From the IMG/VR virus record IMGVR_UViG_3300023087_000026, positions 1 to 48,725 of that record: a stretch of 48,725 nucleotides of DNA. One strand, 5' to 3'. The notes beneath the pieces are model-generated. The model saw only the letters and a list, made by a program, of their open reading frames with translations. It made no database searches and was not told where the DNA came from. This DNA is from a virus. The position numbers and the translations under genes are program-made. Positions 7,116-20,306 of this stretch are shown piece by piece. Position 1 is the first letter of the stretch; each line of letters starts with the position of its first letter.

Positions 7116-7125
7116 TTACTTTTCC

Positions 7126-8983: not shown

Positions 8984-9301
8984 TTATTTTCCGTAGTGAC
9001 CGCCATAAACTCTAAGTCCAGTTTCATTTAAATCTTTTGCTTTAATATTTGGTTTTAAACGATACAGTGTTTTTACATTTGCATTATTAGGATTTTTTAG
9101 TCTATATTGTTTTACACTAAGTCCTGCTTTTTTTGCAGCAGTTCTAATTTTATCTTGGGCATTATACAATTTTTCAATATTTTCTTGGCTTGATTTTCCG
9201 AGATTACGAGCAAGATTAGAATGAGTTCTATTTTTTACTCCTGCTAAATTAGGTCTTGGTTTTTTATTTATTGCTTTTTTGATAGCCTTGCCTATTGTCA
9301 T
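8984..9301 (-). CDS. Small basic hypothetical protein
   Basis: This 105-aa protein is rich in Lys and Asn (AIKKAINKKPRPN, VKQYRLKNPNNANVK) with no membrane segment. It lies between the two putative DNA-recognition genes of the packaging module. I do not recognise the family. Charge suggests nucleic-acid contact. Confidence 0.6.
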   Translation of the reverse strand: MTIGKAIKKAINKKPRPNLAGVKNRTHSNLARNLGKSSQENIEKLYNAQDKIRTAAKKAGLSVKQYRLKNPNNANVKTLYRLKPNIKAKDLNETGLRVYGGHYGK

Positions 9302-9305
9302 AATA

Positions 9306-9674: not shown

Positions 9675-9675
9675 T

Positions 9676-10017
9676 TTAACTCTTTCTTCTAAACAATGCA
9701 AGCACAAAGTTTGCAATTGATTGACCTATTTGTGTTGGCGTAGGAAGTAACCATCCCAGTATTAATAAAAGCATAACCCAAGGTGGAATGTTTTGATTAC
9801 TAATTAGTAGCTTTTCTACTGGACCTGCTTCTACTTCTTTTGTTTCTGTAACAATATCACGTCCTGCGTTGTTAGTTTCTTCTTCTTCATATGTAACTAC
9901 AGCTTGTTTGTTTTCTTTTCCTAGCTGAGTATTGGCTGCTACATTAGTGCCGCCTGTAGGTAATAAAGAAGTTAAACCACAACTAGATAATAATAAGATT
10001 AGGACTAGCCAACGCAT
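9676..10017 (-). CDS. Candidate unimolecular spanin (outer-membrane lipoprotein with C-terminal membrane anchor)
   Basis: The 113-aa protein has a short lipoprotein signal with lipobox LSSC (Cys13), a hydrophilic periplasmic stretch of about 60 residues, and one hydrophobic segment near the C-terminus (about residues 78-107, PPWVMLLLILGWLL onward) ending in RRKS. A lipid anchor at one end and an inner-membrane segment at the other is the architecture of u-spanins such as T1 gp11, which fuse the inner and outer membranes in the last step of lysis. It directly follows the endolysin and holin-like genes. No two-gene Rz/Rz1 pair is present. Confidence 0.7.
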   Translation of the reverse strand: MRWLVLILLLSSCGLTSLLPTGGTNVAANTQLGKENKQAVVTYEEEETNNAGRDIVTETKEVEAGPVEKLLISNQNIPPWVMLLLILGWLLPTPTQIGQSIANFVLALFRRKS

Positions 10018-10484
10018 TACATAAGTTCAAAATGTGGGCCATCAATAAAGGGTCTACGGGATTGTGATCGACGTAGGTCAATGTATTCGTTCATAGCATC
10101 TTCCATTGTACCGTCATAACGAGCAATATTTCCAACTGACCAAGCTGCTCCCCACTTAATAGCACACCCAACTTCCATAGCGGCTGCTGCCATAGCGTCA
10201 GCAATATTATCATAGACGTTAATTTCCCATATTACATCTGAGCCATCATAAGCTACAAGGTCTACGGCATGTGAGTATCCGTCTTCTTGAATCAGATGTT
10301 TTGATTTCATAGTTTGTGATCTACCCGAAGCATACAGTTTTTCTTGCTCTTGAAGGGTTCTGACTCCATACGTTACGCCAAAATCTACTGATGTCAATTC
10401 AATAGCACGTTTGACTGTATCTACCATATCGGGATGAACACCCTCAAGTTTACCTAATGATCTGTTGCTTAGTTTAAATCCCAT
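10017..10484 (-). CDS. Endolysin, M15-type L-alanyl-D-glutamate peptidase
   Basis: The 155-aa protein matches phage M15 (VanY-like) peptidases that cut peptidoglycan cross-bridges. The zinc site is visible as SKH (His63), SHAVDL (Asp75) and the C-terminal GPHFEL (His151). The usual SxHxxGxAxD motif carries a short insert (IQEDGY) between the first His and the Asp segment. There is no signal peptide, so release needs a holin, and a holin-like gene precedes it. The lysis order is holin candidate, endolysin, u-spanin candidate, with start/stop contacts throughout. Confidence 0.85.
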   Translation of the reverse strand: MGFKLSNRSLGKLEGVHPDMVDTVKRAIELTSVDFGVTYGVRTLQEQEKLYASGRSQTMKSKHLIQEDGYSHAVDLVAYDGSDVIWEINVYDNIADAMAAAAMEVGCAIKWGAAWSVGNIARYDGTMEDAMNEYIDLRRSQSRRPFIDGPHFELM

Positions 10485-10804
10485 TACCGCATATCCTTTG
10501 CTTTACCACCCATAGGCTTACCTGCCATGTATGCTGTAGCCCCCATGTAAGCAGCAACTACGCCAGTTTGTGCGATATAAAATAGCCCTAGCAAATCTGC
10601 TAGAGCATTTACTCTTGAGTCTGACATAAAAGGAGTAAACAGAAATACAGTAAAAATAATCATCATGCCCATAGCTACCCAAGCCATAAACTTTTGTGAT
10701 TCTGCTTTTTCTTCACGTAGCTCTATTTCAAGCATACGTTCTTTCATTGCTACTTCTTCTGGAGTGATTGTGCCATCACCATCTACATCAAAATCTACGA
10801 CCAT
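10484..10804 (-). CDS. EF-hand membrane protein, holin candidate
   Basis: The 106-aa protein opens with a canonical EF-hand loop (Asp6, Asp8, Asp10 to Glu17; DVDGDGTITPEE), then a charged helix, then two membrane segments (about residues 41-60, WVAMGMMIIFTVFLF; and 68-93, containing LLGLFYIAQTGVVAAYMG). Position directly before the endolysin and size suggest a holin. The calcium-binding loop on the holin-like body is unusual. Similar EF-hand membrane proteins occur in other marine phages, so an unrelated envelope role is possible. Confidence 0.65.
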   Translation of the reverse strand: MVVDFDVDGDGTITPEEVAMKERMLEIELREEKAESQKFMAWVAMGMMIIFTVFLFTPFMSDSRVNALADLLGLFYIAQTGVVAAYMGATAYMAGKPMGGKAKDMR

Positions 10805-10807
10805 GTA

Positions 10808-11065
10808 TCAAGTCCTTCTGAAACGTTTGGCAGTCTCAGCCGCCCCTTTAGGTTGTTTAGAAAACTGCTTACCTGCTGAGGTGTCTTTTCTTTTTTGTGC
10901 TGTACTAGCTGCATACTGCGAACTAGACATTGCTTTAATAGCTGCTTCAGGTAGATAACGTTCTCCTGTAGCTTTTGGTCCTTGCGTCGAAGGGTTACCA
11001 CTTTTGGTTCTCCAGTTTTGTCGAGTCCACTTATCTAAACTTTGTTGTGATTTAGCTTTAGCCAT
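10808..11065 (-). CDS. Small basic conserved marine-phage protein (resembles DUF5872)
   Basis: The 85-aa protein holds the stretch KSGNPSTQGPKATGERYLPE and ends KGKQFSKQPKGAAETAKRF. Both occur in short basic proteins scattered through marine phage and virus genomes, which I believe are named DUF5872. It is Lys/Thr-rich, with no signal or membrane segment. It begins the lysis-proximal end of a run of small basic genes. Function is unknown. Confidence 0.7.
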   Translation of the reverse strand: MAKAKSQQSLDKWTRQNWRTKSGNPSTQGPKATGERYLPEAAIKAMSSSQYAASTAQKRKDTSAGKQFSKQPKGAAETAKRFRRT

Positions 11066-11519
11066 TTGCGGTTAACCATGCAAAGAATATAATACCGCCG
11101 ATACCAGCAAGCAATAATAAACCTGTTAATGTCCAAGTTATAATTGCTTCTTGTAACTCTGCTTTGCGGTACTCGTGTTCTTTCTTTTGTTTACGAATAC
11201 GAGCTTCTGTAGCTACTAATTCGTCCCAAGCACTTGGCCCCATGACAAAACTAATGTAGCTACGTAACTCTTCTCTCATAGCTTCTGCTTTACGTTTAGC
11301 AGCAAATACTTCTATAGCTTCAGCTTCAACTGAACCGCCCATAGATTTCCACCACGGAGGATTATTTACTTGTTTCTCTGCTTGGCCTAAGTCTGCCATA
11401 TATCCAGCCCATTGAGTTAGTTGACCAGACATATCTTGCAAGTCCTTGCCTATAGCAAAACCTTTTTTAAGTGCGTTGAAGGCAACGGTAGCCCCACTGA
11501 TAATTGTCACTGGGTCCAT
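11058..11519 (-). CDS. Tail-anchored hypothetical protein
   Basis: The 153-aa protein has a helical cytoplasmic body with conserved-looking WAGYMADLGQAEKQV and a basic RIRKQKKEHEYRKAEL helix, followed by one C-terminal membrane segment (about residues 129-150, WTLTGLLLLAGIGGIIFFAW). It overlaps the next gene by 8 bases. Family unknown. Its place next to the lysis genes allows a lysis or envelope role. Confidence 0.65.
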   Translation of the reverse strand: MDPVTIISGATVAFNALKKGFAIGKDLQDMSGQLTQWAGYMADLGQAEKQVNNPPWWKSMGGSVEAEAIEVFAAKRKAEAMREELRSYISFVMGPSAWDELVATEARIRKQKKEHEYRKAELQEAIITWTLTGLLLLAGIGGIIFFAWLTANG

Positions 11520-11528
11520 ATTGCCCTC

Positions 11529-11738
11529 TTAGCTTTTATACCCGCCACCTGCAGCTTTATACTGCTTGGCTAACATCTGAGCTTTACGTGCAGACCATTG
11601 ACCTGCTGCACCGCCCTTATTACCTGCTTTAATTTTTTTAAACAACCGTTCACGCAATGCTGGCTTTGTGTAGTTTCCAGCCGAGTTTACGGTGCTTTTT
11701 TTCTTTTTTGGCTTGGGGGATTTCCGTGGTGCTCTCAT
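11529..11738 (-). CDS. Small basic conserved marine-phage protein
   Basis: The 69-aa protein has a Lys/Pro-rich head and the conserved tail GQWSARKAQMLAKQYKAAGG. This tail recurs in many marine phage genomes as a stand-alone small protein or a domain end. Its net charge is strongly positive. It overlaps the DUF1127 gene by 89 bases in another frame. Its role is unknown. DNA or RNA contact is likely from charge. Confidence 0.65.
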   Translation of the reverse strand: MRAPRKSPKPKKKKSTVNSAGNYTKPALRERLFKKIKAGNKGGAAGQWSARKAQMLAKQYKAAGGGYKS

Positions 11739-11895
11739 CGTATACTACTCGTTTAATATCTCCACGCCCAATACCAATATCATTTAATTCACGATCAGAC
11801 ATACGATACAAATGCATTGCCGCAATACGGCGATTTGCTTCTGCCTGACGTGCCTCAATAAAGGCGTTAAATGTTTTCTTAAACCATTCTTTCAT
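11650..11895 (-). CDS. DUF1127 protein, host-type small RNA-binding regulator
   Basis: The 81-aa protein contains a full DUF1127 core at about residues 29-52 (LYRMSDRELNDIGIGRGDIK). This family is abundant in alphaproteobacteria. A Rhodobacter member, CcaF1, binds RNA and affects RNA turnover. The phage copy adds a basic C-terminal tail (KKEKKHRKLGWKLHK). It has its own promoter and a leader hairpin that covers its ribosome binding site, so it seems individually regulated. It may adjust host RNA stability or stress responses. Likely acquired from the host. Confidence 0.8.
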   Translation of the reverse strand: MKEWFKKTFNAFIEARQAEANRRIAAMHLYRMSDRELNDIGIGRGDIKRVVYDESTTEIPQAKKEKKHRKLGWKLHKASIA

Positions 11896-11943
11896 AACTA
11901 TCTCCTTGTGTTATCGGTAACTTTTGCTACCAGAGATAGTTAT
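11894..11943 (-). promoter_or_regulatory. Leader hairpin masking the DUF1127 start
   Basis: ATAACTATCTC (11,894-11,904) is the exact reverse complement of GAGATAGTTAT (11,933-11,943), with a 28-nt loop holding a further GGTA/TACC pairing. In the minus transcript, one arm overlaps the ribosome binding site AAGGAG (11,907-11,902) and the start codon (11,895-11,893). The stem would block translation until opened. The predicted transcription start lies just before the first arm. Confidence 0.65.
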
Positions 11944-11953
11944 ATCATATATA

Positions 11954-11982
11954 GTTATAGCATACTACACACAATAATGCAA
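11954..11982 (-). promoter_or_regulatory. Sigma70-like promoter for the DUF1127 gene
   Basis: On the minus strand, TTGCAT (11,982-11,977) and TATAAC (11,959-11,954) are 17 bp apart. The -10 and next eight bases match exactly those of the capsid promoter (CATATATAGTTATA on the plus strand, 11,946-11,959). This shared core may mark phage late or structural promoters. Confidence 0.65.
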
Positions 11983-11994
11983 CCCCGTTATGCA

Positions 11995-12354
11995 TTAACC
12001 AACAGGGATAAACGTTTCTGTTATTGTAAGAATTGTATCAATGTGCCCAGCAGATGAAGGAGTAACACGTATTTCGTCACCTGCTTGTAAGACAAGATCA
12101 ATGTTAGAAAAATTTACATAGTCACTTGCGTTGATACTCTTACCTTTTAAAAAGTGAGAGGTGTAGTCATCTGCAGCTACGTACCATTCTACTTCTACAG
12201 AGTTAGTAGAACTTCCACCATTTACTACGTGAATAAAGGTAACTTCTGCCACTGCATTAGCAGGACAGGTGTATACAGTTTCGTATATTGTTCCCGTGTT
12301 GTGACCATACACAGATTTAATACGTGCTGATTTACCTTGGTTTACTAAGCTCAT
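11995..12354 (-). CDS. Putative small virion protein, beta-rich
   Basis: The 119-aa protein looks like a compact beta-sandwich: alternating hydrophobic strands, YTCPANAVAEVTFIHVVNG, VEVEWYVAADD, and a closing ITETFIPVG. Proteins with this look are common in marine phages and are often found in virions as head or tail accessories. It is the first gene upstream of the DUF1127 promoter. Family name not recalled. Confidence 0.6.
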   Translation of the reverse strand: MSLVNQGKSARIKSVYGHNTGTIYETVYTCPANAVAEVTFIHVVNGGSSTNSVEVEWYVAADDYTSHFLKGKSINASDYVNFSNIDLVLQAGDEIRVTPSSAGHIDTILTITETFIPVG

Positions 12355-12672
12355 TTATTTTTTGTTCTTAACTACCCACGCCTCATTGACTTCTGTATTA
12401 GGATCATCTGCAATAAAATGTCCATTTTTGTCACGAGCACGTTCCATTACAAGTTCAGCAGCTTTAGATGCTACTTTCTTTACTGCTTTCTTTACTTGTT
12501 TCTTGACATTGGGCTTTTTACTTACAATGTCTTGAATACGTGAGTCACTGATATAATACCCACCATAAGGGTCTTTACCTGCAAGCACATCACCACGTTG
12601 TGTAGTAACAGTGTCATCAGTAACTACGTATCCATGTTTCTCTAGTTCCGATTGCCAATCTGTAAAATTCAT
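12355..12672 (-). CDS. Small basic hypothetical protein
   Basis: This 105-aa protein has a globular N-terminal half (WQSELEKHGYVVTDDTV) and a Lys/Val-rich central helix (KKQVKKAVKKVASKAAELV). It is tightly packed between neighbours, overlapping the upstream gene by 4 bases. The amphipathic Lys helix may bind nucleic acid or membrane. No family recognised. Confidence 0.6.
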   Translation of the reverse strand: MNFTDWQSELEKHGYVVTDDTVTTQRGDVLAGKDPYGGYYISDSRIQDIVSKKPNVKKQVKKAVKKVASKAAELVMERARDKNGHFIADDPNTEVNEAWVVKNKK

Positions 12673-12887
12673 TTATCTTTACCACCTTTTAAACACTTAC
12701 CTGCTGCCAAGCAGTTACCCCGTGTTTGACATCCTTCACATGTCTCCATAATAAATCCACCTTCATTCATTTTCTTGTAACCACTGGCATACGCAGCGGC
12801 AGCTTGTTTTTCTGCACCTTTACGAGTAGGATACACTTTACCTGAGTCACCCCACTTGTAACCACCCTTAACTTTACGTATAGGCAT
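12669..12887 (-). CDS. Small protein with a C-terminal cysteine cluster
   Basis: The 72-aa protein starts with the familiar marine-phage segment KGGYKWGDSGKVYPTRKGAE and ends with four cysteines in CEGCQTRGNCLAAGKC, spaced like a small metal site. Zinc or iron-sulfur binding is possible. Its start abuts the upstream gene. Function is unknown. Confidence 0.65.
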   Translation of the reverse strand: MPIRKVKGGYKWGDSGKVYPTRKGAEKQAAAAYASGYKKMNEGGFIMETCEGCQTRGNCLAAGKCLKGGKDK

Positions 12888-13075
12888 TAGGCACTATTTC
12901 CTTCAACTTTGTGGCAGTGGGGAGTAGCATAAGCACCCCCTTGCCTTATAGTACTTGCTATCCGCTCTGCTTCCTTTAAACACGTTTCCTCAGTATAGAA
13001 AGGTTCTGGTTTTGCTATAATCTTACAGGACAATGCCATAGGATCAAAACACACAAGCATTATCCCTATCCACAT
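12887..13075 (-). CDS. Small secreted-like cysteine-containing protein
   Basis: The 62-aa product has a hydrophobic start (MWIGIMLVCFDPMAL) and paired cysteines later (EETCLKEAERI, ATPHCHKV). It may be an exported or periplasmic protein with a disulfide. Similar short proteins appear in other marine phages. Role unknown. Confidence 0.55.
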   Translation of the reverse strand: MWIGIMLVCFDPMALSCKIIAKPEPFYTEETCLKEAERIASTIRQGGAYATPHCHKVEGNSA

Positions 13076-13079
13076 AGTA

Positions 13080-13655
13080 CTACTTCTTTTTCTTAGAATA
13101 ACCGCCCTTAGCAGCTCTCATCATACTAGCTTTCTTACCTTTAGACTTTGGTTTTTGTGGTCCGTACTTATCACGGGTAGTTGGACCGCCTCTGCCGTTA
13201 TACTTAGTAAGAAGATCACGCAAAGGAACACCAAGTTTGTCTGCTTCTTTTTTCATAGCTTTTAACCAAGCTGGGTCAACAGAACCTCCTGCTTTCATTT
13301 TAGGACGAAGCTTAGGTTTAGGAGACTGAGATGTACGAGGAACAGTGCGTTTAGGTTTTGCTGCTTCTTCTGATGCAATTTTAAGAAGTGTTTCCCTAAT
13401 CGCTGCTTTTTGTGCTAAAGAAAGATTTTCCTTTTCCAACTTTTTTAGTTCAGACGCATTTGTCATTTCACGAATAGCCGCAACGGTAAGTCCTGCACCT
13501 AGACCTGCTGCTGCACCTTGTCTACGCCCTACTTGTTTGCCTACACGACGACCACCACCAAATGCACGTTGCGCTGGTGTGGAAGAATTTTTCTGTAGCC
13601 TCTTTTTAGCTTTAATTTCATTTCTTATTCTCGATATTGTAGTACTTCTAGCCAT
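13080..13655 (-). CDS. Basic hypothetical protein with a small hydrophobic patch
   Basis: The 191-aa protein is strongly basic at both ends, with a Gly/Ala-rich patch near residues 42-62 (GAAAGLGAGLTVAAI) and a Lys/Pro-rich linker. The C-terminal part GVPLRDLLTKYNGRGG is the most conserved-looking segment, followed by KKKGK tails. It is one of a series of Lys-rich genes. It could be an ejected or DNA-associated virion protein. No family recognised. Confidence 0.6.
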   Translation of the reverse strand: MARSTTISRIRNEIKAKKRLQKNSSTPAQRAFGGGRRVGKQVGRRQGAAAGLGAGLTVAAIREMTNASELKKLEKENLSLAQKAAIRETLLKIASEEAAKPKRTVPRTSQSPKPKLRPKMKAGGSVDPAWLKAMKKEADKLGVPLRDLLTKYNGRGGPTTRDKYGPQKPKSKGKKASMMRAAKGGYSKKKK

Positions 13656-14305
13656 TAGTTATTTCCTTGTGTTCCTGCTACAGATGCGCCACAGTTTGCG
13701 TAGCCGCCTTTGTTATAGTTAAGCCCTTTAACGCCTTTTGCTTTTGCAGGAATTTTAAATGGGGCACGTGGTATAGTGACAGACTTAGCTTTCATGTCTG
13801 CTGCATTTTGAGAAACACCCCGACCTTTTTTGTTTACTTCTTCAGCATTCGCACGGTTAATAGCAGTAATAATGCTTTTATATTTAGCCTCTGTAATACG
13901 TCCTGCCGCCAGATCAGCTTTAGCTTTACGTTTACCTTCAGCACGTGAAACACTGGTATACGCTATCATAGAACCTGGACCTTCTTTTTTATTCTGTTGT
14001 GTAGTTGTCTTTGCACTTACACGACCTGTTGCTGCACGTGCTCTTTCTTCGCCAGATTGTCTACGTTTAGCTGGAGGAATTGCTGAACGATCACCTTTTG
14101 GTTTAGGCTTTGCTGCTTCACCACGCTTTACAATAGAATCAATATTCTTTTTTTCTGCCTGATTAATCTTAGCAATAGCTGCCGCTTCTTTTTCACCCTT
14201 CATCTTAGGGTTGGCTCGAATAGCTTTACGAGCTGCATTCGCCTCTGATTTTGTAGCAGTTTTACTTACTGCCTTTCCTATTTTTGTCAATAATCCAGCC
14301 AACAT
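13655..14305 (-). CDS. Basic, Ala/Lys-rich hypothetical protein
   Basis: The 216-aa protein consists of Ala/Lys-rich helical segments (NAARKAIRANPKMKGEKEAA) and Pro/Lys linkers, ending in a Gly/Asn/Cys-containing tail. It is strongly basic and low in aromatic residues, typical of histone-like or virion-packed proteins. Its stop is shared with the next start. Function unknown. Confidence 0.6.
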   Translation of the reverse strand: MLAGLLTKIGKAVSKTATKSEANAARKAIRANPKMKGEKEAAAIAKINQAEKKNIDSIVKRGEAAKPKPKGDRSAIPPAKRRQSGEERARAATGRVSAKTTTQQNKKEGPGSMIAYTSVSRAEGKRKAKADLAAGRITEAKYKSIITAINRANAEEVNKKGRGVSQNAADMKAKSVTIPRAPFKIPAKAKGVKGLNYNKGGYANCGASVAGTQGNN

Positions 14306-14320
14306 TTTAATTACGTCCTT

Positions 14321-14614
14321 TTACCACTTGACCTTATGCGACCAGTACTTAGCACTTAGTTTACTAGTCGGCTTACCTTGAGCATTATGCCGTGCATAAT
14401 AACTCTTCTTACGTGCTTTGTCTTTTGCACTGGTGGGGCTTTTACCTGCACCCTTTACACCTTGTTGACCAAAACGGATAAACTTATAAGTGTCACCTTC
14501 CTTAGCCATTACGCAATGTGATTTAGTTGGGTGCTTAGGTGTACGCTTAGGTTTGTTAACACCAGTAAGCCCCTCTTCTTTCATTTTAGTTTTGACTCTT
14601 TCAGGTATACTCAT
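14321..14614 (-). CDS. Conserved small marine-phage protein
   Basis: The 97-aa protein contains SHCVMAKEGDTYKFIRFGQQ and ends SAKYWSHKVKW. Both are characteristic of a short basic family found across cyanophages and other marine phages, possibly DUF6321. The pattern of two beta strands followed by a basic helical part suggests a nucleic-acid-binding fold. Function is not established. Confidence 0.7.
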   Translation of the reverse strand: MSIPERVKTKMKEEGLTGVNKPKRTPKHPTKSHCVMAKEGDTYKFIRFGQQGVKGAGKSPTSAKDKARKKSYYARHNAQGKPTSKLSAKYWSHKVKW

Positions 14615-14832
14615 TAGTCAGTACCGTCCGTCCATCCTTCCATACGCATAGCCCATTCTACATGTTCCAACGTAAACTTCCTCCCATAGTGGTTCTGTAC
14701 GGCCTCTCGTACATAGAATACATCACTATGAGGGATATGCAATCTATCTATAGTTCCATTAAGTAAATGATTATAAAACTCAGAAAGAACATTGTCAGTA
14801 TATAGTTTTACTGATTTTTGCTTCATTGTCAA
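14614..14832 (-). CDS. Small hypothetical protein, first gene of the minus-strand block
   Basis: The 72-aa protein is soluble and aromatic-rich (FYVREAVQNHYGRKF, VEWAMRMEGW). It is the first gene after the divergent control region, so it should be expressed first from the minus promoter near 15,000. Its stop overlaps the next start. No family recognised. Confidence 0.6.
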   Translation of the reverse strand: MTMKQKSVKLYTDNVLSEFYNHLLNGTIDRLHIPHSDVFYVREAVQNHYGRKFTLEHVEWAMRMEGWTDGTD

Positions 14833-14983
14833 GAACTTTCTTTATACAATACAAACTCCTCGCCTAACGGCGTACACTTTAAGTGTTACATATACGTGAT
14901 AAATAAGTTAAGTATAATTATATCTAACTATAATTACAGTTAAGTGAATCACTTTAAGTGTCATCTTAGTTTTAACTATAATA

Positions 14984-15011
14984 GTTTTACACATTCTGTG
15001 AGGCATGTCAA
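14984..15011 (-). promoter_or_regulatory. Putative promoter of the minus-strand block
   Basis: A perfect TTGACA (15,011-15,006, minus strand) is followed after 16 bp by a weak -10, TAAAAC (14,989-14,984). It would give a leader of about 140 nt before the first gene. A second AT-rich stretch at 14,917-14,933 holds TATAAT-like hexamers without a -35. Confidence 0.45.
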
Positions 15012-15030
15012 CCCCTAGCAGATATAATAA

Positions 15031-15041
15031 GAACATTGTTC
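15031..15041. promoter_or_regulatory. Candidate operator half, GAAC-ATT-GTTC
   Basis: A perfect palindrome in half-sites GAAC and GTTC, 20 bp upstream of the minus-strand -35. A sister site lies 31 bp away, about three helical turns, which suits cooperative binding by a dimeric regulator. Confidence 0.45.
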
Positions 15042-15060
15042 CTGTAATCCCACGTTTTGA

Positions 15061-15073
15061 AGAACCATGTTCT
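15061..15073. promoter_or_regulatory. Candidate operator half, AGAAC-CAT-GTTCT
   Basis: Second GAAC-N3-GTTC palindrome, centred 31 bp from the one at 15,031-15,041. The shared half-site and spacing suggest a single regulator acting on the minus promoter. It does not match the usual alphaproteobacterial LexA box (GTTC-N7-GTTC). Confidence 0.45.
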
Positions 15074-15107
15074 GTGTAAACCACTATGTATGTAATGTGG
15101 TTAACAC
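15074..15107. repeat. Near-perfect inverted repeat
   Basis: GTGTAAACCAC (15,074-15,084) pairs with GTGGTTAACAC (15,097-15,107) with one mismatch and a 12-nt loop. It directly follows the second GAAC palindrome and may be part of the same control element. Confidence 0.5.
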
Positions 15108-15260
15108 TCCATTTTTCCTGATCTGTGTATTTATACATGCATATATACGTACACCCCCACCCTGTCCCCTGCCCGTGGCCTACTCACCGCACACAATTCT
15201 GCGCATAATGCAATGTCATGACGTGTGGTGAGAGCAGCAGAAGTGTCTCAGTTCACCAAC

Positions 15261-15273
15261 ACACCGAAGGTGT
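15261..15273. repeat. C-GAA-G mini-hairpin 1
   Basis: ACACC-GAA-GGTGT: five paired bases closed by C-G over a GAA loop. The same sequence recurs at 15,360 and, shortened, at 15,496. GNA triloops closed by C-G are known as unusually stable DNA mini-hairpins. Confidence 0.6.
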
Positions 15274-15359
15274 AAGCAATTTCAATGGGTTACTTGTCTA
15301 CGACAACTGTTATGGAATCAGTTGCCACTCTTTAGAGTGAGTAAAAAGGTTATAATGTA

Positions 15360-15372
15360 ACACCGAAGGTGT
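15360..15372. repeat. C-GAA-G mini-hairpin 2
   Basis: Exact second copy of ACACC-GAA-GGTGT. It lies four bases after a perfect TATAAT hexamer (15,351-15,356). Confidence 0.6.
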
Positions 15373-15401
15373 GTTGAAGATACAATGCACATTTTTACCC
15401 T

Positions 15402-15416
15402 ACCCCCAGAGGGGGT
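15402..15416. repeat. GC-rich hairpin
   Basis: ACCCCC-AGA-GGGGGT, six pairs. It has no T-run on either side, so it is not a standard terminator. Confidence 0.55.
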
Positions 15417-15477
15417 GGTGGTCATTGGCAGAGCTGCATACGGCTTGTAGGATCGTGAAGCTGACCCAGTTCAAAGT

Positions 15478-15491
15478 GTCCGATGTCGGAC
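15478..15491. repeat. 14-nt palindrome, copy 1
   Basis: GTCCGATGTCGGAC in the divergent region, upstream of the early promoter. Its flanks (AAAGT on the left, GGTT on the right) are the reverse of those around copies 3-5. Confidence 0.75.
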
Positions 15492-15495
15492 GGTT

Positions 15496-15506
15496 CACCG
15501 AAGGTG
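15496..15506. repeat. C-GAA-G mini-hairpin 3
   Basis: CACC-GAA-GGTG, five bases after palindrome copy 1. It is a shortened copy of the hairpins at 15,261 and 15,360. Confidence 0.55.
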
Positions 15507-15562
15507 GTATCTTACTGTGGCAATTAGGTCACACTTCTTCACGAGTTTAGCGCATGAACTTC

Positions 15563-15588
15563 AGAAAAAAATGGAACATTTTATTTCT
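15563..15588. repeat. Long hairpin in the control region
   Basis: AGAAA-AAAATG, loop GAA, CATTTT-(A)-TTTCT: eleven pairs with one bulged A. A separate hairpin, AATTTCT-TGAAG-AGAAATT, lies at 15,637-15,655, just before the early promoter. Confidence 0.5.
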
Positions 15589-15662
15589 TGCAGTAGCGCA
15601 GGAAACGGCAAGCGCAGGGGATCACATGACGTGTTGAATTTCTTGAAGAGAAATTATGGGGC

Positions 15663-15690
15663 TTGACTTCTATTACTTACTAACTATTCT
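15663..15690 (+). promoter_or_regulatory. Early promoter of the plus-strand block
   Basis: TTGACT (15,663-15,668) and TATTCT (15,685-15,690) are 16 bp apart, in good position to drive the whole replication block. The -10 lies inside one arm of a long inverted repeat, so promoter opening and repeat folding may compete. Expected transcript start is near 15,697. Confidence 0.65.
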
Positions 15691-15768
15691 AGTAACATAG
15701 ATAGTTTATATCTCTCCCTTTAGGGTGAGAGAGATAATAAACTCTCTTAATGTTACAATAGTTAGTAA
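15677..15768. promoter_or_regulatory. Long inverted repeat over the early promoter and leader
   Basis: TTACTAACTATT (15,677-15,688) and GTAACAT (15,692-15,698) match ATGTTAC (15,750-15,756) and AATAGTTAGTAA (15,757-15,768), giving 19 pairs with a 3-nt bulge. Inside sits TCTCTCCC-TTTA-GGGTGAGA (15,711-15,730). Because the left arm includes the -10, the outer pairing can form only in DNA, while the inner hairpin would be in the mRNA leader. The right arm ends near the ribosome binding site of the first gene. Confidence 0.65.
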
Positions 15769-15779
15769 AGGAAAGTATC

Positions 15780-16385
15780 ATGGCTAAATCAGCAAAATCA
15801 GTCTCAGTAGTTGAAGGAACTTCAATGGATGCTCTAGTAAAAGAGGGCAAAGCCCTAGCAAGAATTTGGAAACAGACTAACAGTCTGAAGGATAGCACAA
15901 AAGCCTCTGGCTTTGATACTCGCCTTGGTAAATTGCTTCAGCAATTGAAAGCGCAGTCTTCACTTGACTCTGGTCAAGTTAGCCGCCAAACACTGACAAC
16001 TTATGGTATTCATACCATTGATCGTCGTCGTCGTGCCGAAGCTCTTTGGTTCGTTGAAAACGAAGTTGCTTGCCGTGATTTCATGAAAGCCTCAAAGAAA
16101 GGCTTCACATCACTTTCTGCTTTACAGAAAGCTATGAATGCTGCTGCTAAAGCAGTTGATGAACCAAAGCAACCTGCTAAAGCAGAAGTGTCCGATGTCG
16201 GACAGTCTGATGACAAACCAACGAAGTTGGTGCAACACTCTGAGACTAAAGTCTCTGTCCCTGTCACTCGCTCAGTGATGGTTAATACCATCATCAAGCA
16301 GTGCGAAGCTAACGGCCTTAACCTTGAAGAGGTTATTGACGATCTAATTTCAAAGCTTGCTTTGCAAGAAAAGAAAGCGGCGTAA
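15780..16385 (+). CDS. First early protein, hypothetical, encoded by hairpin-saturated DNA
   Basis: The 201-aa protein starts with ATG after AAAGGAAAG. It is soluble and basic, with an N-terminal domain ending in a RRRRAEALWFVENEV helix, a variable Ala/Lys/Pro linker (residues about 115-160), and a C-terminal helical segment (VNTIIKQCEANGLNLEEVIDDLI). The length of linker and two helical ends suggest a DNA-binding or regulatory protein, but I recognise no family. The DNA is unusual: about 18 perfect mini-hairpins and one copy of the 14-nt palindrome (encoding VSDVGQ) lie within 606 bases, in all three frame phases. Confidence 0.75.
   Translation: MAKSAKSVSVVEGTSMDALVKEGKALARIWKQTNSLKDSTKASGFDTRLGKLLQQLKAQSSLDSGQVSRQTLTTYGIHTIDRRRRAEALWFVENEVACRDFMKASKKGFTSLSALQKAMNAAAKAVDEPKQPAKAEVSDVGQSDDKPTKLVQHSETKVSVPVTRSVMVNTIIKQCEANGLNLEEVIDDLISKLALQEKKAA
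15811..16368. repeat. Array of short perfect hairpins within a gene
   Basis: Inverted repeats of 5-7 bp with loops of 2-7 nt start at 15811, 15844, 15873, 15900, 15931, 15962, 16003, 16050, 16087, 16113, 16144, 16174, 16190, 16217, 16242, 16276, 16319 and 16356. Examples: AAAGCC-TCT-GGCTTT, ACTTGAC-TCTG-GTCAAGT, ACCAAC-GAA-GTTGGT, TGATGGT-TAAT-ACCATCA. Stem sequences differ, spacing averages about 32 nt, and starts fall in all codon phases. The pattern continues less densely to about 18.3 kb. Confidence 0.75.
16190..16203. repeat. 14-nt palindrome, copy 2 (in coding sequence)
   Basis: GTCCGATGTCGGAC inside the first early gene, read as part of VSDVGQ. Copy 6 encodes the same residues in another gene. 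Confidence 0.75.
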
Positions 16386-16427
16386 CCAAAGGTTACACTG
16401 TTTCTGCTCACTCTAAAGAGTGGGCAG
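16382..16427 (+). promoter_or_regulatory. Two hairpins after the first early gene
   Basis: GTAACC-AAA-GGTTAC (16,382-16,396) includes the stop codon. CTGCTCACTCT-AA-AGAGTGGGCAG (16,404-16,427) gives 11 pairs with one G-T. There is no U-run, so RNA processing or protection of the 3' end is more likely than termination. Confidence 0.5.
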
Positions 16428-16440
16428 TGATGGTGAAACT

Positions 16441-16457
16441 TTAAATCGGAGATTTAA
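16441..16457 (+). promoter_or_regulatory. Hairpin with the ribosome binding site in its loop, gene at 16,460
   Basis: TTAAATC-GGA-GATTTAA, seven pairs closed by C-G. The loop GGA is the Shine-Dalgarno core and the ATG follows two bases later. Confidence 0.65.
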
Positions 16458-16459
16458 TT

Positions 16460-16591
16460 ATGAACACAGTAAAAGTTATCGTAGATAAAAATGGTATCTG
16501 GCATGTTTATCGTACCGATAAAATCACAGGTCAACGTGCGATCTCATTCTTTCAGAATGTCGATGAGGCTAAAGCAGCCTTACTAAAGTAA
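16460..16591 (+). CDS. Small hypothetical protein (43 aa)
   Basis: A 43-aa product, MNTVKVIVDKNGIWHVYR followed by a FFQNVDEAKAALLK helix. The beta-beta-helix look is of a small complete domain. The ribosome binding site is displayed in a hairpin loop. The gene contains further mini-hairpins (TTTATCG-TAC-CGATAAA at 16,506-16,522; CATTCT-TTC-AGAATG at 16,545-16,559). Function unknown. Confidence 0.6.
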   Translation: MNTVKVIVDKNGIWHVYRTDKITGQRAISFFQNVDEAKAALLK

Positions 16592-16595
16592 AACC

Positions 16596-16609
16596 GTCCG
16601 ATGTCGGAC
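16596..16609. repeat. 14-nt palindrome, copy 3
   Basis: GTCCGATGTCGGAC five bases after a stop codon and five bases before a ribosome-binding-site hairpin. First of three identical modules. Confidence 0.8.
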
Positions 16610-16614
16610 ACTTT

Positions 16615-16629
16615 TTAAACGGAGTTTAA
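16615..16629 (+). promoter_or_regulatory. Hairpin with the ribosome binding site in its loop, gene at 16,631
   Basis: TTAAAC-GGA-GTTTAA, six pairs with loop GGA. The start codon follows one base later. Confidence 0.65.
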
Positions 16630-16630
16630 T

Positions 16631-16795
16631 ATGTATTTTGCAAAGTTTCTCACTGTTTTATGCTTGATTTTAACAAGCATTGTATTTGCAGCAACTGTGA
16701 TATTCGTAGCACAAGGCATCCTGACACCTGATTGGCTGCTCATTGGCATCCCTTACATCGGTGTCTGCTTGCTATCTATCTGGGCGGCAGACTAA
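16631..16795 (+). CDS. Small two-segment membrane protein
   Basis: A 54-aa product with two hydrophobic segments (MYFAKFLTVLCLILTSIVF and WLLIGIPYIGVCLLSIW) and hardly any soluble part. Early phage membrane peptides of this size often act on the host envelope or block superinfection, but nothing specific can be said. Its stop overlaps the next start (TAATG). Confidence 0.6.
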   Translation: MYFAKFLTVLCLILTSIVFAATVIFVAQGILTPDWLLIGIPYIGVCLLSIWAAD

Positions 16796-16950
16796 TGACG
16801 AAAGCGGAACTGCTAAAGCAGAAACTTGAACTTGCCAAAATGTTGGCTAATGTTAAAACACCTAACGAGAAATCACTGTCTTATGACAGTGGTTGGAAAG
16901 AACCAAATGATCCAACTTTATTGTCTTACAGTTATATAACACTTGAATGA
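16795..16950 (+). CDS. Small hypothetical protein (51 aa)
   Basis: The product begins MTKAELLKQKLELAKMLANV, an amphipathic helix, then a polar tail. The ATG overlaps the preceding stop, so translation is probably coupled. It contains CTGCT-AA-AGCAG (third exact copy, 16,810-16,821) and CACTGTC-TTAT-GACAGTG (16,874-16,891). Its stop codon lies in the loop of a 14-bp hairpin. Confidence 0.6.
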   Translation: MTKAELLKQKLELAKMLANVKTPNEKSLSYDSGWKEPNDPTLLSYSYITLE

Positions 16951-16971
16951 TTAGTGAAAGTGTTATATAAC
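16931..16971 (+). promoter_or_regulatory. 14-bp perfect inverted repeat spanning a stop codon
   Basis: GTTATATAACACTT (16,931-16,944) and AAGTGTTATATAAC (16,958-16,971) are exact reverse complements around a 13-nt loop holding the TGA. Each arm also contains the self-palindrome GTTATATAAC. No U-run follows. Confidence 0.6.
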
Positions 16972-17003
16972 ATGTATAGACATAAACACTTCAAACTGAA
17001 ACC

Positions 17004-17017
17004 GTCCGATGTCGGAC
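17004..17017. repeat. 14-nt palindrome, copy 4
   Basis: GTCCGATGTCGGAC, four bases before the ribosome-binding-site hairpin of the gene at 17,037. It shares the flanks ACC and ACTTT with copies 3 and 5. Confidence 0.8.
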
Positions 17018-17021
17018 ACTT

Positions 17022-17032
17022 TAACGGAGTTA
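17022..17032 (+). promoter_or_regulatory. Hairpin with the ribosome binding site in its loop, gene at 17,037
   Basis: TAAC-GGA-GTTA, four pairs closed by C-G, ATG four bases later. Confidence 0.55.
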
Positions 17033-17036
17033 TCCA

Positions 17037-17231
17037 ATGAAAATTATTCGTACTTCCCGTTTAACTGGCAACACAACTCACTGGGATATGCCAATCACTC
17101 AAGCACAAATGGATGCTTGGGTCGATGGTGAGTTGATCCAAAACGCCATGCCGCATCTTACAGCGGATCAACGTGAGTTCCTGATGACAGGTATCACACC
17201 TGCCGAATGGCAAGCCGCCTTTGGCGAATAA
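17037..17231 (+). CDS. Small conserved phage protein
   Basis: The 64-aa protein reads MKIIRTSRLTGNTTHW then a helical ADQREFLMTGITPAEWQAAF end. This type of short protein, with the TGITPEEW-like ending, is common in phages of proteobacteria, but its role is not known. It is expressed from the palindrome/hairpin module. Confidence 0.65.
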   Translation: MKIIRTSRLTGNTTHWDMPITQAQMDAWVDGELIQNAMPHLTADQREFLMTGITPAEWQAAFGE

Positions 17232-17239
17232 TTGAAACC

Positions 17240-17253
17240 GTCCGATGTCGGAC
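17240..17253. repeat. 14-nt palindrome, copy 5
   Basis: GTCCGATGTCGGAC, eight bases after the preceding stop and four bases before the next ribosome-binding-site hairpin. Confidence 0.8.
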
Positions 17254-17257
17254 ACTT

Positions 17258-17268
17258 TTACGGAGTAA
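17258..17268 (+). promoter_or_regulatory. Hairpin with the ribosome binding site in its loop, gene at 17,274
   Basis: TTAC-GGA-GTAA, four pairs closed by C-G, ATG five bases later. Confidence 0.55.
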
Positions 17269-17273
17269 CCGTT

Positions 17274-17972
17274 ATGACAGTAACAAACGCAGAGCTATCC
17301 GATCTTATACGTTTCGTCGATGATATCGGCATGTATGCAACAGATCGTCCGATCAATGACACTGAGAACCATGAAGGTTCTTGTATTCACCGCACTGATT
17401 TCTGCGATCAGACCTGCTACAACATGAAGCTGTACAAAATGTACAAGAACATGGCGAACCGTGATGATCGTTGTGAAACGATCTGGCAGAAACTTAGCAC
17501 TTTCAGTGCCATTGAAGTCAAGCAATGGATTGCCAAACGCCGCAAGCCTACACAACGTATTCGTCACATGACCCGTGGCGAGGCGTTCAAAAACATGGCA
17601 GACATTCACCGTGTCAAAGCTATGTGCCTAGACAATCCCGATGTGCTATGGTGGATACCTACCAGAGCATGGCGAGATGATGGCCTACGTCTGGCTATTC
17701 AGGAGTTCCTGATGCCATTGCCAAACTGCGCAATCAATGCATCGTTTGACCCGTCTAACACTGACGACGAATGGCGTATGATGCAAGATGCAGGTTGGAA
17801 CATCATGTTCTTTGGCGATGATGATCGTACCACTGCACCTAATGGTGATCGTATGTTCAAGTGTCCTAAAACCCATAAGGGTTTGAAAGGTCACTGCATG
17901 GACTGCAAGGCAGGTTGCTTTGCACAGAAAACAATTAACCGCACCGTAGTGGTGCATCTATCGGAGCATTAA
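17274..17972 (+). CDS. Cysteine-rich protein, possibly GP88-like
   Basis: The 232-aa protein has two cysteine groups: CIHRTDFCDQTCYN near residue 38 and CPKTHKGLKGHCMDCKAGC near 205. These could bind zinc or an iron-sulfur cluster. The layout recalls the phage GP88 family, whose role is unclear. The ATG at 17,274 is chosen because it follows the ribosome-binding-site hairpin. An upstream in-frame ATG at 17,232 would translate through the palindrome. Hairpins persist in the gene, for example GATCGTT-GTGA-AACGATC (17,466-17,483). Confidence 0.65.
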   Translation: MTVTNAELSDLIRFVDDIGMYATDRPINDTENHEGSCIHRTDFCDQTCYNMKLYKMYKNMANRDDRCETIWQKLSTFSAIEVKQWIAKRRKPTQRIRHMTRGEAFKNMADIHRVKAMCLDNPDVLWWIPTRAWRDDGLRLAIQEFLMPLPNCAINASFDPSNTDDEWRMMQDAGWNIMFFGDDDRTTAPNGDRMFKCPKTHKGLKGHCMDCKAGCFAQKTINRTVVVHLSEH

Positions 17973-17974
17973 CA

Positions 17975-18148
17975 ATGGAATTGTTAGTATCAATTGAAAC
18001 ATCTTATGGTACACGTCGAGTGTACCCTAAGTGTAGCACATCACGAACACTTGCTGAGATTGCAGGTACAACTACGTTGACAGATCGTGATGTAAGTTTA
18101 ATCAAACAACTAGGCTACACATTTCGTGTAGTGACAGAGGAATTGTGA
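17975..18148 (+). CDS. Small hypothetical protein (57 aa)
   Basis: MELLVSIETSYGTRRVYP then LAEIAGTTTLTDRDV and a closing LGYTFRVVTEEL. ATG follows GGAG. Two strands, a helix and two strands suggest a compact fold. The DNA contains GGTACAC-GTCGA-GTGTACC (18,008-18,026) and CTACAC-ATTTC-GTGTAG (18,115-18,131). Function unknown. Confidence 0.6.
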   Translation: MELLVSIETSYGTRRVYPKCSTSRTLAEIAGTTTLTDRDVSLIKQLGYTFRVVTEEL

Positions 18149-18149
18149 T

Positions 18150-18455
18150 ATGAAAGTATACAATGCTATGAATAACATTTATGTTAGATACATGGGCAGG
18201 GAGATTTCCATTGCCCAACATGTCCACAGTGGACACACCGAAGTGCAGGAGATAGGCATACTACCTTCAGGAGTTGATATGCATATTGTAAAATATGATG
18301 CCGTTCTGCCAAGTTTAATTGCAGCATTGCAGGAGATACAAGATGAAATCGAAAGGGACATCTGGGGTGATAAACCCAGTGGCAAAAGCTTTGCTTCAAC
18401 AGCGCAAAAGTCCACAGGTCGTACCGCCCAAGAAGGGCAACAAACGCAAACCTAG
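18150..18455 (+). CDS. Hypothetical protein (101 aa)
   Basis: The product has a globular first part (VRYMGREISIAQHV, IVKYDAVLPSLIAALQEI) and a polar Ser/Thr/Gln tail. The tail region overlaps a second gene at 18,343 by 113 bases, and the composition there looks less protein-like, so the end of this gene may have been extended over its neighbour. Contains TGTCCA-CAG-TGGACA (18,221-18,235). Confidence 0.5.
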   Translation: MKVYNAMNNIYVRYMGREISIAQHVHSGHTEVQEIGILPSGVDMHIVKYDAVLPSLIAALQEIQDEIERDIWGDKPSGKSFASTAQKSTGRTAQEGQQTQT

Positions 18456-18501
18456 TAAGAAGGAAAAGCAAAATGAAATGCGAAATGCAAAACTTTATTA
18501 A
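18343..18501 (+). CDS. Small basic protein in an overlapping frame
   Basis: A 52-aa product, MKSKGTSGVINPVAKALLQQ then Lys-rich PPKKGNKRKPSKKEKQNEMR. It has a better ribosome binding site (AGGAG, 6 nt before ATG) than expected by chance and resembles short basic NPVAKAL-type phage proteins. It overlaps the preceding gene by 113 bases in another frame. Function unknown. Confidence 0.55.
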   Translation: MKSKGTSGVINPVAKALLQQRKSPQVVPPKKGNKRKPSKKEKQNEMRNAKLY

Positions 18502-18616
18502 GTTTTCTAAATCAAAAGTGTCCGATGTCGGACAGAAACCTAAACGTGACGATTGGAAACGTGATCGTAAGATCGCACGTAAAAACAAATCACTAACCCG
18601 TAAACTAGCATCTTAA
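18473..18616 (+). CDS. Small basic protein containing palindrome copy 6
   Basis: A 47-aa product, MKCEMQNFIKFSKSKVSDVG then QKPKRDDWKRDRKIARKN. The segment VSDVGQ is encoded by the 14-nt palindrome in the same frame as in the first early gene. A hairpin AAAACTT-TATT-AAGTTTT lies at 18,489-18,506. Start overlaps the preceding gene. Function unknown. Confidence 0.5.
   Translation: MKCEMQNFIKFSKSKVSDVGQKPKRDDWKRDRKIARKNKSLTRKLAS
18530..18543. repeat. 14-nt palindrome, copy 6 (in coding sequence)
   Basis: GTCCGATGTCGGAC with left flank AAAGT and right flank AGA, as in copy 2. Confidence 0.75.
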
Positions 18617-18633
18617 TAGAAGGAGTATACCCT

Positions 18634-18978
18634 ATGTCTAACACTGCAATCTTTAAATCTGTTCGTTCAACACAACCTGCATTGTATGCTGAACACACAT
18701 TCCACATGAAAAAATGTGTGTCTTACACATACAACTATGCACCGATTGACGATTACATCGTGCAGAATTGGGACAATAAAACTATGCGTCAAATGGCAAA
18801 CGACTTGAACGAATACTTGAACCGCATTATATATCGGTGTGAAGTATTGAAACGTATTGGTATGATTGAACCACGTTATGTACAAGACGGGCGTACCGCA
18901 CTGCGTAATGAACGTCGTGAACTGCGTGTCAAGTTGAAAAAAGTTGAGGCCAAACTAAGTGAGATTAGTGCAGCATAA
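18634..18978 (+). CDS. Hypothetical protein (114 aa)
   Basis: The protein has an aromatic N-terminal part (CVSYTYNYAPIDDYI) and a helical basic C-terminal half (LRNERRELRVKLKKVEAKLS) that should form a coiled coil. ATG follows AAGGAG. No family recognised. Confidence 0.6.
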   Translation: MSNTAIFKSVRSTQPALYAEHTFHMKKCVSYTYNYAPIDDYIVQNWDNKTMRQMANDLNEYLNRIIYRCEVLKRIGMIEPRYVQDGRTALRNERRELRVKLKKVEAKLSEISAA

Positions 18979-19081
18979 AAACAAATGGGTTGTGTATGAT
19001 GATCATGATCGTGTGGTCATCATTACACACAACAAACGTATCGCAATGAAGTATGTGAAGGAGCAAAGCAATGCGAGTTGA
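18968..19081 (+). CDS. Small protein with a GTG start (37 aa)
   Basis: Read from GTG at 18,968: HKNKWVVYDDHDRVVIITHN then a KRIAMKYVKEQ helix. The strand-strand-helix order looks like a real short domain, and both ends overlap neighbouring genes by 11 bases as in a tight operon. No good ribosome binding site, so coupling to the preceding gene is likely. Confidence 0.45.
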   Translation: MQHKNKWVVYDDHDRVVIITHNKRIAMKYVKEQSNAS

Positions 19082-19478
19082 AGTTTATTTTAACCTACAC
19101 AAATACACATGGTCTGTTCGTCAGTGTTCCACTGGCAGAGTAATCTTACACACTGACAAGGTACACATTCGTGACCCTAAGTTTGTGGTACGTAAGGCAG
19201 GGCGTGAACGTGTCCTGCGTGAGGGCAAGAAGAATGTTCATGCATTTGTTCGTGGTGAGATCACACACTTTGATGACTTTGATCCAGAGTATCATCCAGA
19301 CTATCTGGACTACACACTTGTGTCATACAACCCATACAAGTTTGACACATTCGTTGATGTGTATGACACGACACCTGTACGTACAGCCAAACGTGCTATG
19401 CTACAGCTACAGCCAAGCATGGTCGTTGGCGATCACAGAAACAGACCATATCTATATGCGAAAGGAGCAAGTTCATGA
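19071..19478 (+). CDS. Conserved phage protein (135 aa)
   Basis: The segment EVYFNLHKYTWSVRQ, then VRKAGRERVLREGKKNVHAF and VRGEITHFDD, matches a short protein seen in many T7-like phages, without known role. ATG follows AAGGAG. Contains CAGTG-TTC-CACTG (19,122-19,134) and the self-palindrome CTGTACGTACAG (19,375-19,386). Confidence 0.65.
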   Translation: MRVEVYFNLHKYTWSVRQCSTGRVILHTDKVHIRDPKFVVRKAGRERVLREGKKNVHAFVRGEITHFDDFDPEYHPDYLDYTLVSYNPYKFDTFVDVYDTTPVRTAKRAMLQLQPSMVVGDHRNRPYLYAKGASS

Positions 19479-19714
19479 AAATAATGGGCTACGAAATCGT
19501 AGTTGAAATAGATGGGGTGGAAAGTTGCATCCAGTTGGATGACACTTACCCCGCAATCAATGATTGGCACAGTGCCACAGAGTTTGCCATGCGTTTGGCT
19601 CAACACGAGCATCCAGACGCAGACCAGATTGACTTTGTGGAGTGTGGCGAATTTGAAATGGAAGAATACAAACAATATGACTTCATACATGAAGCACCAT
19701 TTATGATACAGTAA
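19475..19714 (+). CDS. Small acidic hypothetical protein
   Basis: A 79-aa acidic protein (YEIVVEIDGVESCIQLDD, then HPDADQIDFVECGEFEMEEY). Starts 4 bases inside the previous gene, after AAAGGAG. Acidic early phage proteins can mimic DNA, but this is only a thought. No family recognised. Confidence 0.6.
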   Translation: MKIMGYEIVVEIDGVESCIQLDDTYPAINDWHSATEFAMRLAQHEHPDADQIDFVECGEFEMEEYKQYDFIHEAPFMIQ

Positions 19715-19723
19715 GGAGTAAAC

Positions 19724-19921
19724 ATGGCTTATGAAAGCAAAGACAGACAATGGTTTGCACTAAGTTGTTTAGGTAACTTACACCCACTAGGTGACTGTGG
19801 GGATGCAATCGAAGCAGAAGAAATAGCAAATGACTTAGGGTTAGATGCAATATGGATTGCTGACGCAGAAACAGTTAAGCAATGGGCAGACACAATCAGA
19901 ACAACTACTGAAAGGATATAA
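19724..19921 (+). CDS. Small hypothetical protein (65 aa)
   Basis: An acidic, Ala-rich product (GDAIEAEEIANDLGLDAIWI). ATG follows AAGGAG. Part of the string of small early genes. No family recognised. Confidence 0.6.
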   Translation: MAYESKDRQWFALSCLGNLHPLGDCGDAIEAEEIANDLGLDAIWIADAETVKQWADTIRTTTERI

Positions 19922-19922
19922 T

Positions 19923-20306
19923 ATGATGGAAGCTAAAATCAAACTAACGAAAACGATGCTAGACAAGAGCATCATTGATGCCAACAAATCTGTGCGAGAG
20001 TTTCTGGATCATGACTTTGGCATGAACTACGACGATAAGTTCTTTACAGAAGAATGGTGGGATGTAGAAAGCCAAAGGACAGAACGTGCGCATTTTATAG
20101 TGGTCGGTGAGTATGCTGATGGCACAGAGGTAGACGTAAAGTTTTACCGTAGTGTAAAACGTGGTGACAAACGTATCAGCATTCAGAAGCTGAAACAATA
20201 TGCAGAGGCAGGGGATCAAGTGGTTCTCACCTCAGATGCGGAGAGTTTACATGATGGATACCGAATACATATCAACATCGTCAAACAAGCCGATGCCACC
20301 GCATGA
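19923..20306 (+). CDS. Hypothetical protein (127 aa)
   Basis: The ATG at 19,923 after GAAAGGATATA is preferred to an upstream in-frame start inside the previous gene. The protein has a central HFIVVGEYADGTEVDVKFYR strand pair and basic segments, perhaps a small nucleic-acid-binding fold. It overlaps the next gene by 4 bases. No family recognised. Confidence 0.6.
   Translation: MMEAKIKLTKTMLDKSIIDANKSVREFLDHDFGMNYDDKFFTEEWWDVESQRTERAHFIVVGEYADGTEVDVKFYRSVKRGDKRISIQKLKQYAEAGDQVVLTSDAESLHDGYRIHINIVKQADATA

Follow-up and report, generated by a model that had tools for sequence, protein, structure and literature searches.

The early promoters of bacteriophage N4 are extruded DNA hairpins that are read by the virion RNA polymerase, three in number, each with a 3-nt loop closed by a C-G pair. 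The genome-scale ordered RNA structure (GORS) of RNA viruses spreads diffusely across coding regions and involves no conserved sequence, and put of phage HK022 consists of two stem-loops. We describe here a field of short perfect inverted repeats in a marine podovirus that resembles each of these systems in part. As in N4, the early region opens with small DNA hairpins whose 3-nt loops are closed by C-G pairs, but here there are dozens instead of three, with unrelated stems and within coding sequence. As in GORS, the structure is diffuse, lies on coding sequence and shows no sequence conservation, but it occurs in double-stranded DNA phages, in one localized region, and is made of uniform, spaced mini-hairpins with almost no G.U pairs. 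As in HK022 put and antitermination leader RNAs, a structured leader stands directly behind an early phage promoter, but here it is a single nested stem-loop of about 90 nt accompanied by a kilobase-scale hairpin field. Perfect stems, loop inversions and multi-base compensatory changes also place the hairpins with those arising from quasipalindromes by template switching, a mechanism that is established and has been described for RNA genes (PMC8794818), but which does not predict their limited stem length, their spacing or their confinement to one region. In the literature searched, which covered few subscription journals, we found no published description of such a field, and it appears to be a selected layer of structure in phage genomes that had not been described before.

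The window, by which we mean the whole stretch of 48,725 nucleotides that was analysed, comes from an HMO-2011-type podovirus whose closest named relatives are the Roseobacter phages CRP-1 and CRP-345. Among its gene products are a DnaB-like helicase, a primase, a tyrosine recombinase and a family A DNA polymerase that carries a zinc motif of the DnaJ type. The early genes point to the right, starting at about 15.8 kb, and the late genes to the left, starting at about 14.8 kb. Its ends (1 and 48,725) show no overlap or joining and its length falls about 5 kb below that of related complete genomes, and the genome may be incomplete.

Counting as a hairpin any perfect inverted repeat with a stem of at least 6 bp and a loop of 2-9 nt, we found 47 hairpins between 15,240 and 18,300 against 5.8 ± 2.3 in dinucleotide-preserving shuffles (z = 18; none of 300 shuffles reached 47), in agreement with the initial annotation, which had put the figure at more than 35 against about 6 by chance. 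The first rightward early gene (gene 1) alone contains 15, compared with 1.3 after dinucleotide shuffling and 1.6 ± 1.2 after codon-preserving shuffling (maximum 7 in 2000), and the GP88-domain gene contains 7 where 1.2 are expected. Base composition is ruled out as the cause by the dinucleotide shuffles and protein coding by the codon shuffles, so that the claim that protein sequence does not explain the hairpins is strongly supported: they form a structural layer independent of it. A single repeated element is likewise ruled out, since only one 14-mer repeats; REP/REPIN-type elements are copies of one palindrome, and the stems here are unrelated apart from that 14-mer with its 6 copies. Rfam covariance models gave nothing close to a gathering score between 14,700 and 20,000. 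The excess is carried by loops of 2-5 nt.

Most of the window lies at shuffle level, with 28 hairpins against 29.6 in 1-15,239 and 25 against 28.0 in 35,176-48,725. The segment 21,501-26,200, in which the helicase gene lies, holds 15 against 9.1 (z 1.9); 26,201-35,175 holds 22 against 15.5. The field had been drawn as ending at 18,300, and it is real up to there, but this end was set too early: 17,973-20,000 still has 15 hairpins against 4.1 (z 5.7), at declining density. The elements of the region are collected in Table 1.

Table 1. Features of the hairpin field and its control region (window coordinates)
Feature	Position	Strand	Basis or remark
Hairpin field	15240..20000	+	Perfect inverted repeats of short length, most crowded at 15.25-16.65 kb and thinning out by ~20 kb
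Control-region hairpins	15261..15582	+	Place kept, stems differ in relatives
ACCCCC-AGA-GGGGGT hairpin	15402..15416	+	Similar ACCCCC-NNN(N)-GGGGGT in P-SSP2, P-SSP7
Repeated hairpin GTCCGATGTCGGAC, 6 copies	15478, 16189, 16596, 17004, 17240, 18519 (15478..18534)	+	
Promoter-like TTGACT-16-TATTCT; -10 within 5' arm of leader palindrome	15663..15690	+	Consensus scan; matches not above shuffle count
Long nested stem-loop leader before gene 1	15677..15768	+	One ~90-nt hairpin, -35.6 kcal/mol
Leader core ATCTCTCCCTTTAGGGTGAGAGAGAT	15710..15735	+	Exact match with P-SSP2-type cyanophages
Gene 1, 201 aa, first rightward early gene, hairpins over most of its length	15780..16385	+	Hairpin counts, homologues
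GP88-domain early gene, 246 aa, inside field	17232..17972	+	Pfam PF17338, E 2.5e-7

The field is conserved. Homologues of gene 1 were found at 83 loci, 43 of them distinct (less than 90% identical), and the field is present in these 43 HMO-2011-type relatives, which are phylogenetically non-independent and, like the other loci compared, mostly metagenomic contigs. Averaged over the 43 loci (stem at least 6, loop 2-5), hairpin density is about 1.2 per kb at first, reaches 16 per kb at 400 nt before gene 1, holds at about 15 per kb through the gene and is back at background by about 4.4 kb. In 42 gene 1 homologues we counted 365 hairpins against 46 after codon shuffling, with 39 of the 42 above all their shuffles. 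They occur in all codon phases, as had been noted for gene 1 of the window; starts are distributed 129/111/128 by phase across relatives. Codon alignments contain sets of variants that keep their pairing despite changes of both base and amino acid (GTCCGATGTCGGAC / GTCCAATGTTGGAC / GTCCAACGTTGGAC, TTGAAGGAACTTCAA / TAGTTGGAACAACTA and ATTGCTACAGCAAT / ACTCTTACAAGAGT), and the amino-acid changes among them include coordinated ones. Positions are retained across about 50% protein divergence, and the compensatory base changes fall at these fixed positions, as in an RNA structural element. Two outcomes named in the initial annotation as refuting the field, a hairpin density at the level of codon-preserving shuffles and a loss of pairing in relatives, were both checked, and neither is observed.

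HMO-2011 itself has the field, CRP-2, CRP-207, HTVC033P and CRP-3 have neither field nor gene 1, and CRP-212, CRP-235 and CRP-738 have no comparable field; among the HMO-type phages examined, the gene 1 family is confined to those that bear the field. Its product is predicted to be all-helical, and fold and PDB sequence searches gave no significant match. Gene 1 and its homologues look mosaic, with blocks such as ISRQTLTTYGIHTID and IPTHVLRTHGIANID combined differently among relatives, and comparisons among relatives are to be read with this recombinant appearance in mind.

The same arrangement recurs in a second, unrelated family. The exact leader core occurs in 59 viral contigs, about half of which are not HMO-type and resemble Prochlorococcus podoviruses, and P-SSP2, P-SSP3, P-SSP7 and P-GSP1 carry it or close variants. 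In this cyanophage group, a host-type promoter is followed by a long stem-loop leader with the ATCTCTCCCTTTAGGGTGAGAGAGAT core and then by a hairpin field in the first kilobase or so. A -10 motif (TATACT, TATAAT or TAGAAT) immediately precedes the leader, which begins at the predicted +1, so that the field lies wholly downstream of the predicted transcription start; these promoters, like those of the HMO-type phages, are sequence predictions. From +200 to +1000, density is about 14 per kb, compared with roughly 1-3 elsewhere and no field upstream, in a profile that includes two truncated HMO-type contigs (L138 and L152), which were excluded from the stem-length, spacing and close-pair counts. 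The first genes are unrelated to gene 1. In P-SSP7 the leader is situated within the 206-bp terminal repeat, about 150 bp in, and the field is therefore the genome end region in that phage. Field polarity follows early transcription in both groups. A leader core common to alphaproteobacterial and cyanobacterial phages may have been spread by horizontal transfer or be kept by a conserved binding partner that they have in common, both of which we regard as candidate readings.

Stem lengths are narrowly bounded in both groups. Ratios of observed to expected stems of 3 to 8 bp are 1.0, 1.2, 2.7, 10, 17 and 7 in the HMO-type phages, where 11 hairpins have 9-bp stems and no stem reaches 10 bp. In the cyanophages they are 1.4, 6.8, 30 and 38 for 5 to 8 bp; 2 stems measure 9 bp and again none reaches 10 bp. 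These enrichments place a threshold at about 6 bp and an upper limit at about 8 bp. Neighbours prefer a centre-to-centre distance of 24-36 nt, about 31 nt; in gene 1 of the HMO-type phages 265 of 568 gaps fall in this range against about 151 under random placement. For the window's own gene 1, an interval of 16-47 nt had been given, and the gaps we measured, mostly 24-47 nt, agree with it. A rigid long-range lattice is ruled out: power after shuffling the gaps is close to that observed (1.94 against 1.61), which leaves a mere preference between neighbours.

Pairs closing the loop are much more often C-G or T-A than G-C or A-T (53% C-G and 8% G-C in triloops). GNA triloops, which are unusually stable in DNA, number 56 against 15 expected (3.6-fold); few of the 119 four-base loops are GNRA (9) or UNCG (1). 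Loops are A-rich and diverse in sequence. A ViennaRNA comparison of loops was uninformative for triloops, and its contrast at 4-5 nt is confounded because random loops can gain an inner pair.

Pairing within the stems bears on whether they are selected as DNA or as RNA. By our nearest-neighbour estimate, a single interior G.U pair leaves a 7-bp stem in RNA about as stable as a perfect 6-bp stem, and selection for RNA stability should enrich the two about equally, but the enrichment of such G.U stems is 2.2-fold in the HMO-type phages against 17-fold for perfect stems, and 0.9-fold against 30-fold in the cyanophages, so that neither group accepts G.U within its stems as an RNA-selected element would. 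Stems that are almost strictly Watson-Crick disfavour a plain protective structure in RNA and fit the folding of a DNA strand or renewal by template switching. G.U mismatches number 17 and A.C mismatches 25 between close cyanophage pairs, which like the loci are phylogenetically non-independent; downstream of the start codon in HMO-type phages the counts are 108 and 45 (41 and 12 at interior pairs), and G.T is the milder mismatch in DNA as well. The excess of GNA triloops, the low G.U content of the leaders and the HMO-type hairpins that stand upstream of the leader promoter point towards DNA as well. On balance the evidence favours DNA folding, although not decisively.

The field is real, conserved and common to two phage groups, and its location and polarity tie it to early transcription or first DNA entry. 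We tentatively read it as a layer of nucleic-acid structure that is itself the object of selection, and we infer that this selection acts mainly on the DNA strand. The most likely class of explanation is a folding of one strand of the early transcribed region, which in P-SSP7 is also terminal, selected as DNA, with protection of RNA as the main rival. An array of hairpins with stems of 6-8 bp and loops of 2-5 nt, about 31 nt apart, would cover the first-transcribed genome end directly behind the early promoter and the long stem-loop leader. The non-template strand, possibly exposed during intense early transcription or DNA entry (in R-loops, through negative supercoiling, or at an end that is entering or has been resected), would then fold into hairpins, limiting unfolded stretches to about 15 nt. 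This might leave single-strand-binding proteins, recombination proteins and nucleases too little space to bind, or might hold the region open for replication start, and any choice among these benefits is a guess; template switching may help to make and repair the stems. Against selection as DNA stand the excess of G.U over A.C in HMO-type coding parts, as RNA would allow, the position of the cyanophage field behind the predicted transcription start, which suits RNA at least equally, and the fact that we came upon no reader of such DNA hairpins, whether a protein or a process.

We consider it unlikely, though still a serious competitor, that the field acts as a shield in RNA, in which the 5'-terminal stem-loop and hairpins every 31 nt or so in the early mRNA deny single-stranded room to RNase E, Rho and RNA polymerase backtracking, so that the first transcripts survive. 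A role of this kind had been offered in the initial annotation, and what speaks for it is the cyanophage leader at the predicted +1 with the field downstream only, the fall of hairpin density along the transcript, the A-rich loops and the G.U excess in HMO-type coding parts. Moreover, host RNase E increases during P-SSP7 infection and phage transcripts are reportedly protected by antisense RNA (PMC9692554). The scant enrichment of G.U-containing stems counts against a shield, as do the lack of a clear preference for GNRA or UNCG loops, the RNase E-like motif RNWUU, which is undepleted in the HMO-type field (0.96 of shuffle), and the HMO-type hairpins that reach upstream of the leader promoter.

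It is less probable still that the field is a mutational footprint of no benefit to the phage, left where single strands lie exposed close to an origin or genome end and frequent template switching keeps perfecting inverted repeats. Such a process would account for Watson-Crick-only stems, and loop inversions account for 6 of the 42 changes confined to loops between close pairs and for 18 of 81 such changes in the noncoding part, where 127 compensated changes compare with 54 broken stems. Loop inversions and multi-pair compensations show that template switching acts in the field, and to this extent the template-switch origin listed among the first suggestions is upheld. Alone, however, it predicts neither an upper stem limit, nor a preferred spacing, nor a promoter-proximal restriction, and it leaves unexplained the narrow stem window without a long tail, the neighbour spacing of about 31 nt, the same positions retained across diverged proteins and the presence of the field only together with the leader or gene 1.

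We regard as quite improbable an array of binding sites, one per hairpin, for a structure-specific phage or host protein, such as the gene 1 product, that coats the folded DNA or RNA. The loop-binding protein imagined at the outset would suit the uniform geometry with unrelated sequences, the regular spacing and the way gene 1 tracks the field among HMO-type phages, but the loops are diverse, the cyanophage group lacks gene 1 and has unrelated first genes, and the predicted fold of the gene 1 product offers no significant PDB match. N4-type promoters as such, also suggested initially, gain no support: stems and loops vary along the array and between relatives, with no conserved hairpin and flanking promoter sequence, and the large unassigned ORFs scanned in this possibly incomplete window gave no Pfam or PHROGs match to an RNA polymerase.

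Returning to strand folding selected as DNA, we think it possible, with some hesitation, that such a layer is general to short-tailed marine phages, shared by or convergent in two unrelated families with different hosts, in which Watson-Crick DNA mini-hairpins would fold the first-entering, first-transcribed strand and shape the encoded proteins. Evenly spaced mini-hairpins over a kilobase scale in two unrelated, widespread ocean phage groups imply that, during the first minutes of infection, an unknown process acts on the DNA or RNA of the phage, and by forcing coordinated amino-acid changes the field affects the evolution of early phage proteins. These ideas are directly testable, as two phage-host pairs are in culture, P-SSP7 on Prochlorococcus MED4 and CRP-1 on its Roseobacter host.

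Leaders equivalent to that of the window stand in relatives and cyanophages with different arm sequences, and a promoter-like sequence equivalent to that of the window is visible in relatives. HMO-2011 has a long stem-loop leader of another sequence in the same place, which indicates that architecture is conserved better than sequence. The leaders are G.U-poor on both strands (3.5-5.5% G.U against 12-13% shuffled). The reverse complement of the leader core resembles a T3-type promoter. Upstream of the leader, the control-region hairpin at 15,326 reads CACTCTTTAGAGTG / CATGCTTTAGCATG / CAGTGTTTACACTG across relatives, and the ACCCCC-NNN(N)-GGGGGT hairpins of P-SSP2 and P-SSP7 lie about 300-350 nt upstream of the leader core, the P-SSP7 copy within the 206-bp terminal repeat. 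Between -520 and -120 the 5' arms have a composition of C 0.33 and G 0.10; in all fields (for example L007 and L165) 5' arms are C-rich and G-poor, and 3' arms the reverse. Further upstream, a block at 15073-15200 that is strongly conserved among relatives is followed by a C-rich, G-poor stretch, possibly an origin, a genome end or a site of the rut type.

Three of the 6 copies of the repeated hairpin GTCCGATGTCGGAC stand just before small early genes, and GTCCAATGTTGGAC and GTCCAACGTTGGAC are its covarying forms in relatives. HMO-2011 has a multi-copy hairpin of its own, AGTCCG-ACAG-CGGACT, and the copies of such hairpins seem to change together between phages. Terminator-like sites number 15 between 14.7 and 18.7 kb against 2.7 expected, 11 of them on the minus strand. 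A Shine-Dalgarno-like GGA lies in the loop of a small hairpin before a start codon at 16441-16457 and 16615-16629, and likewise at 54828 and 452 of the HMO-2011 record.
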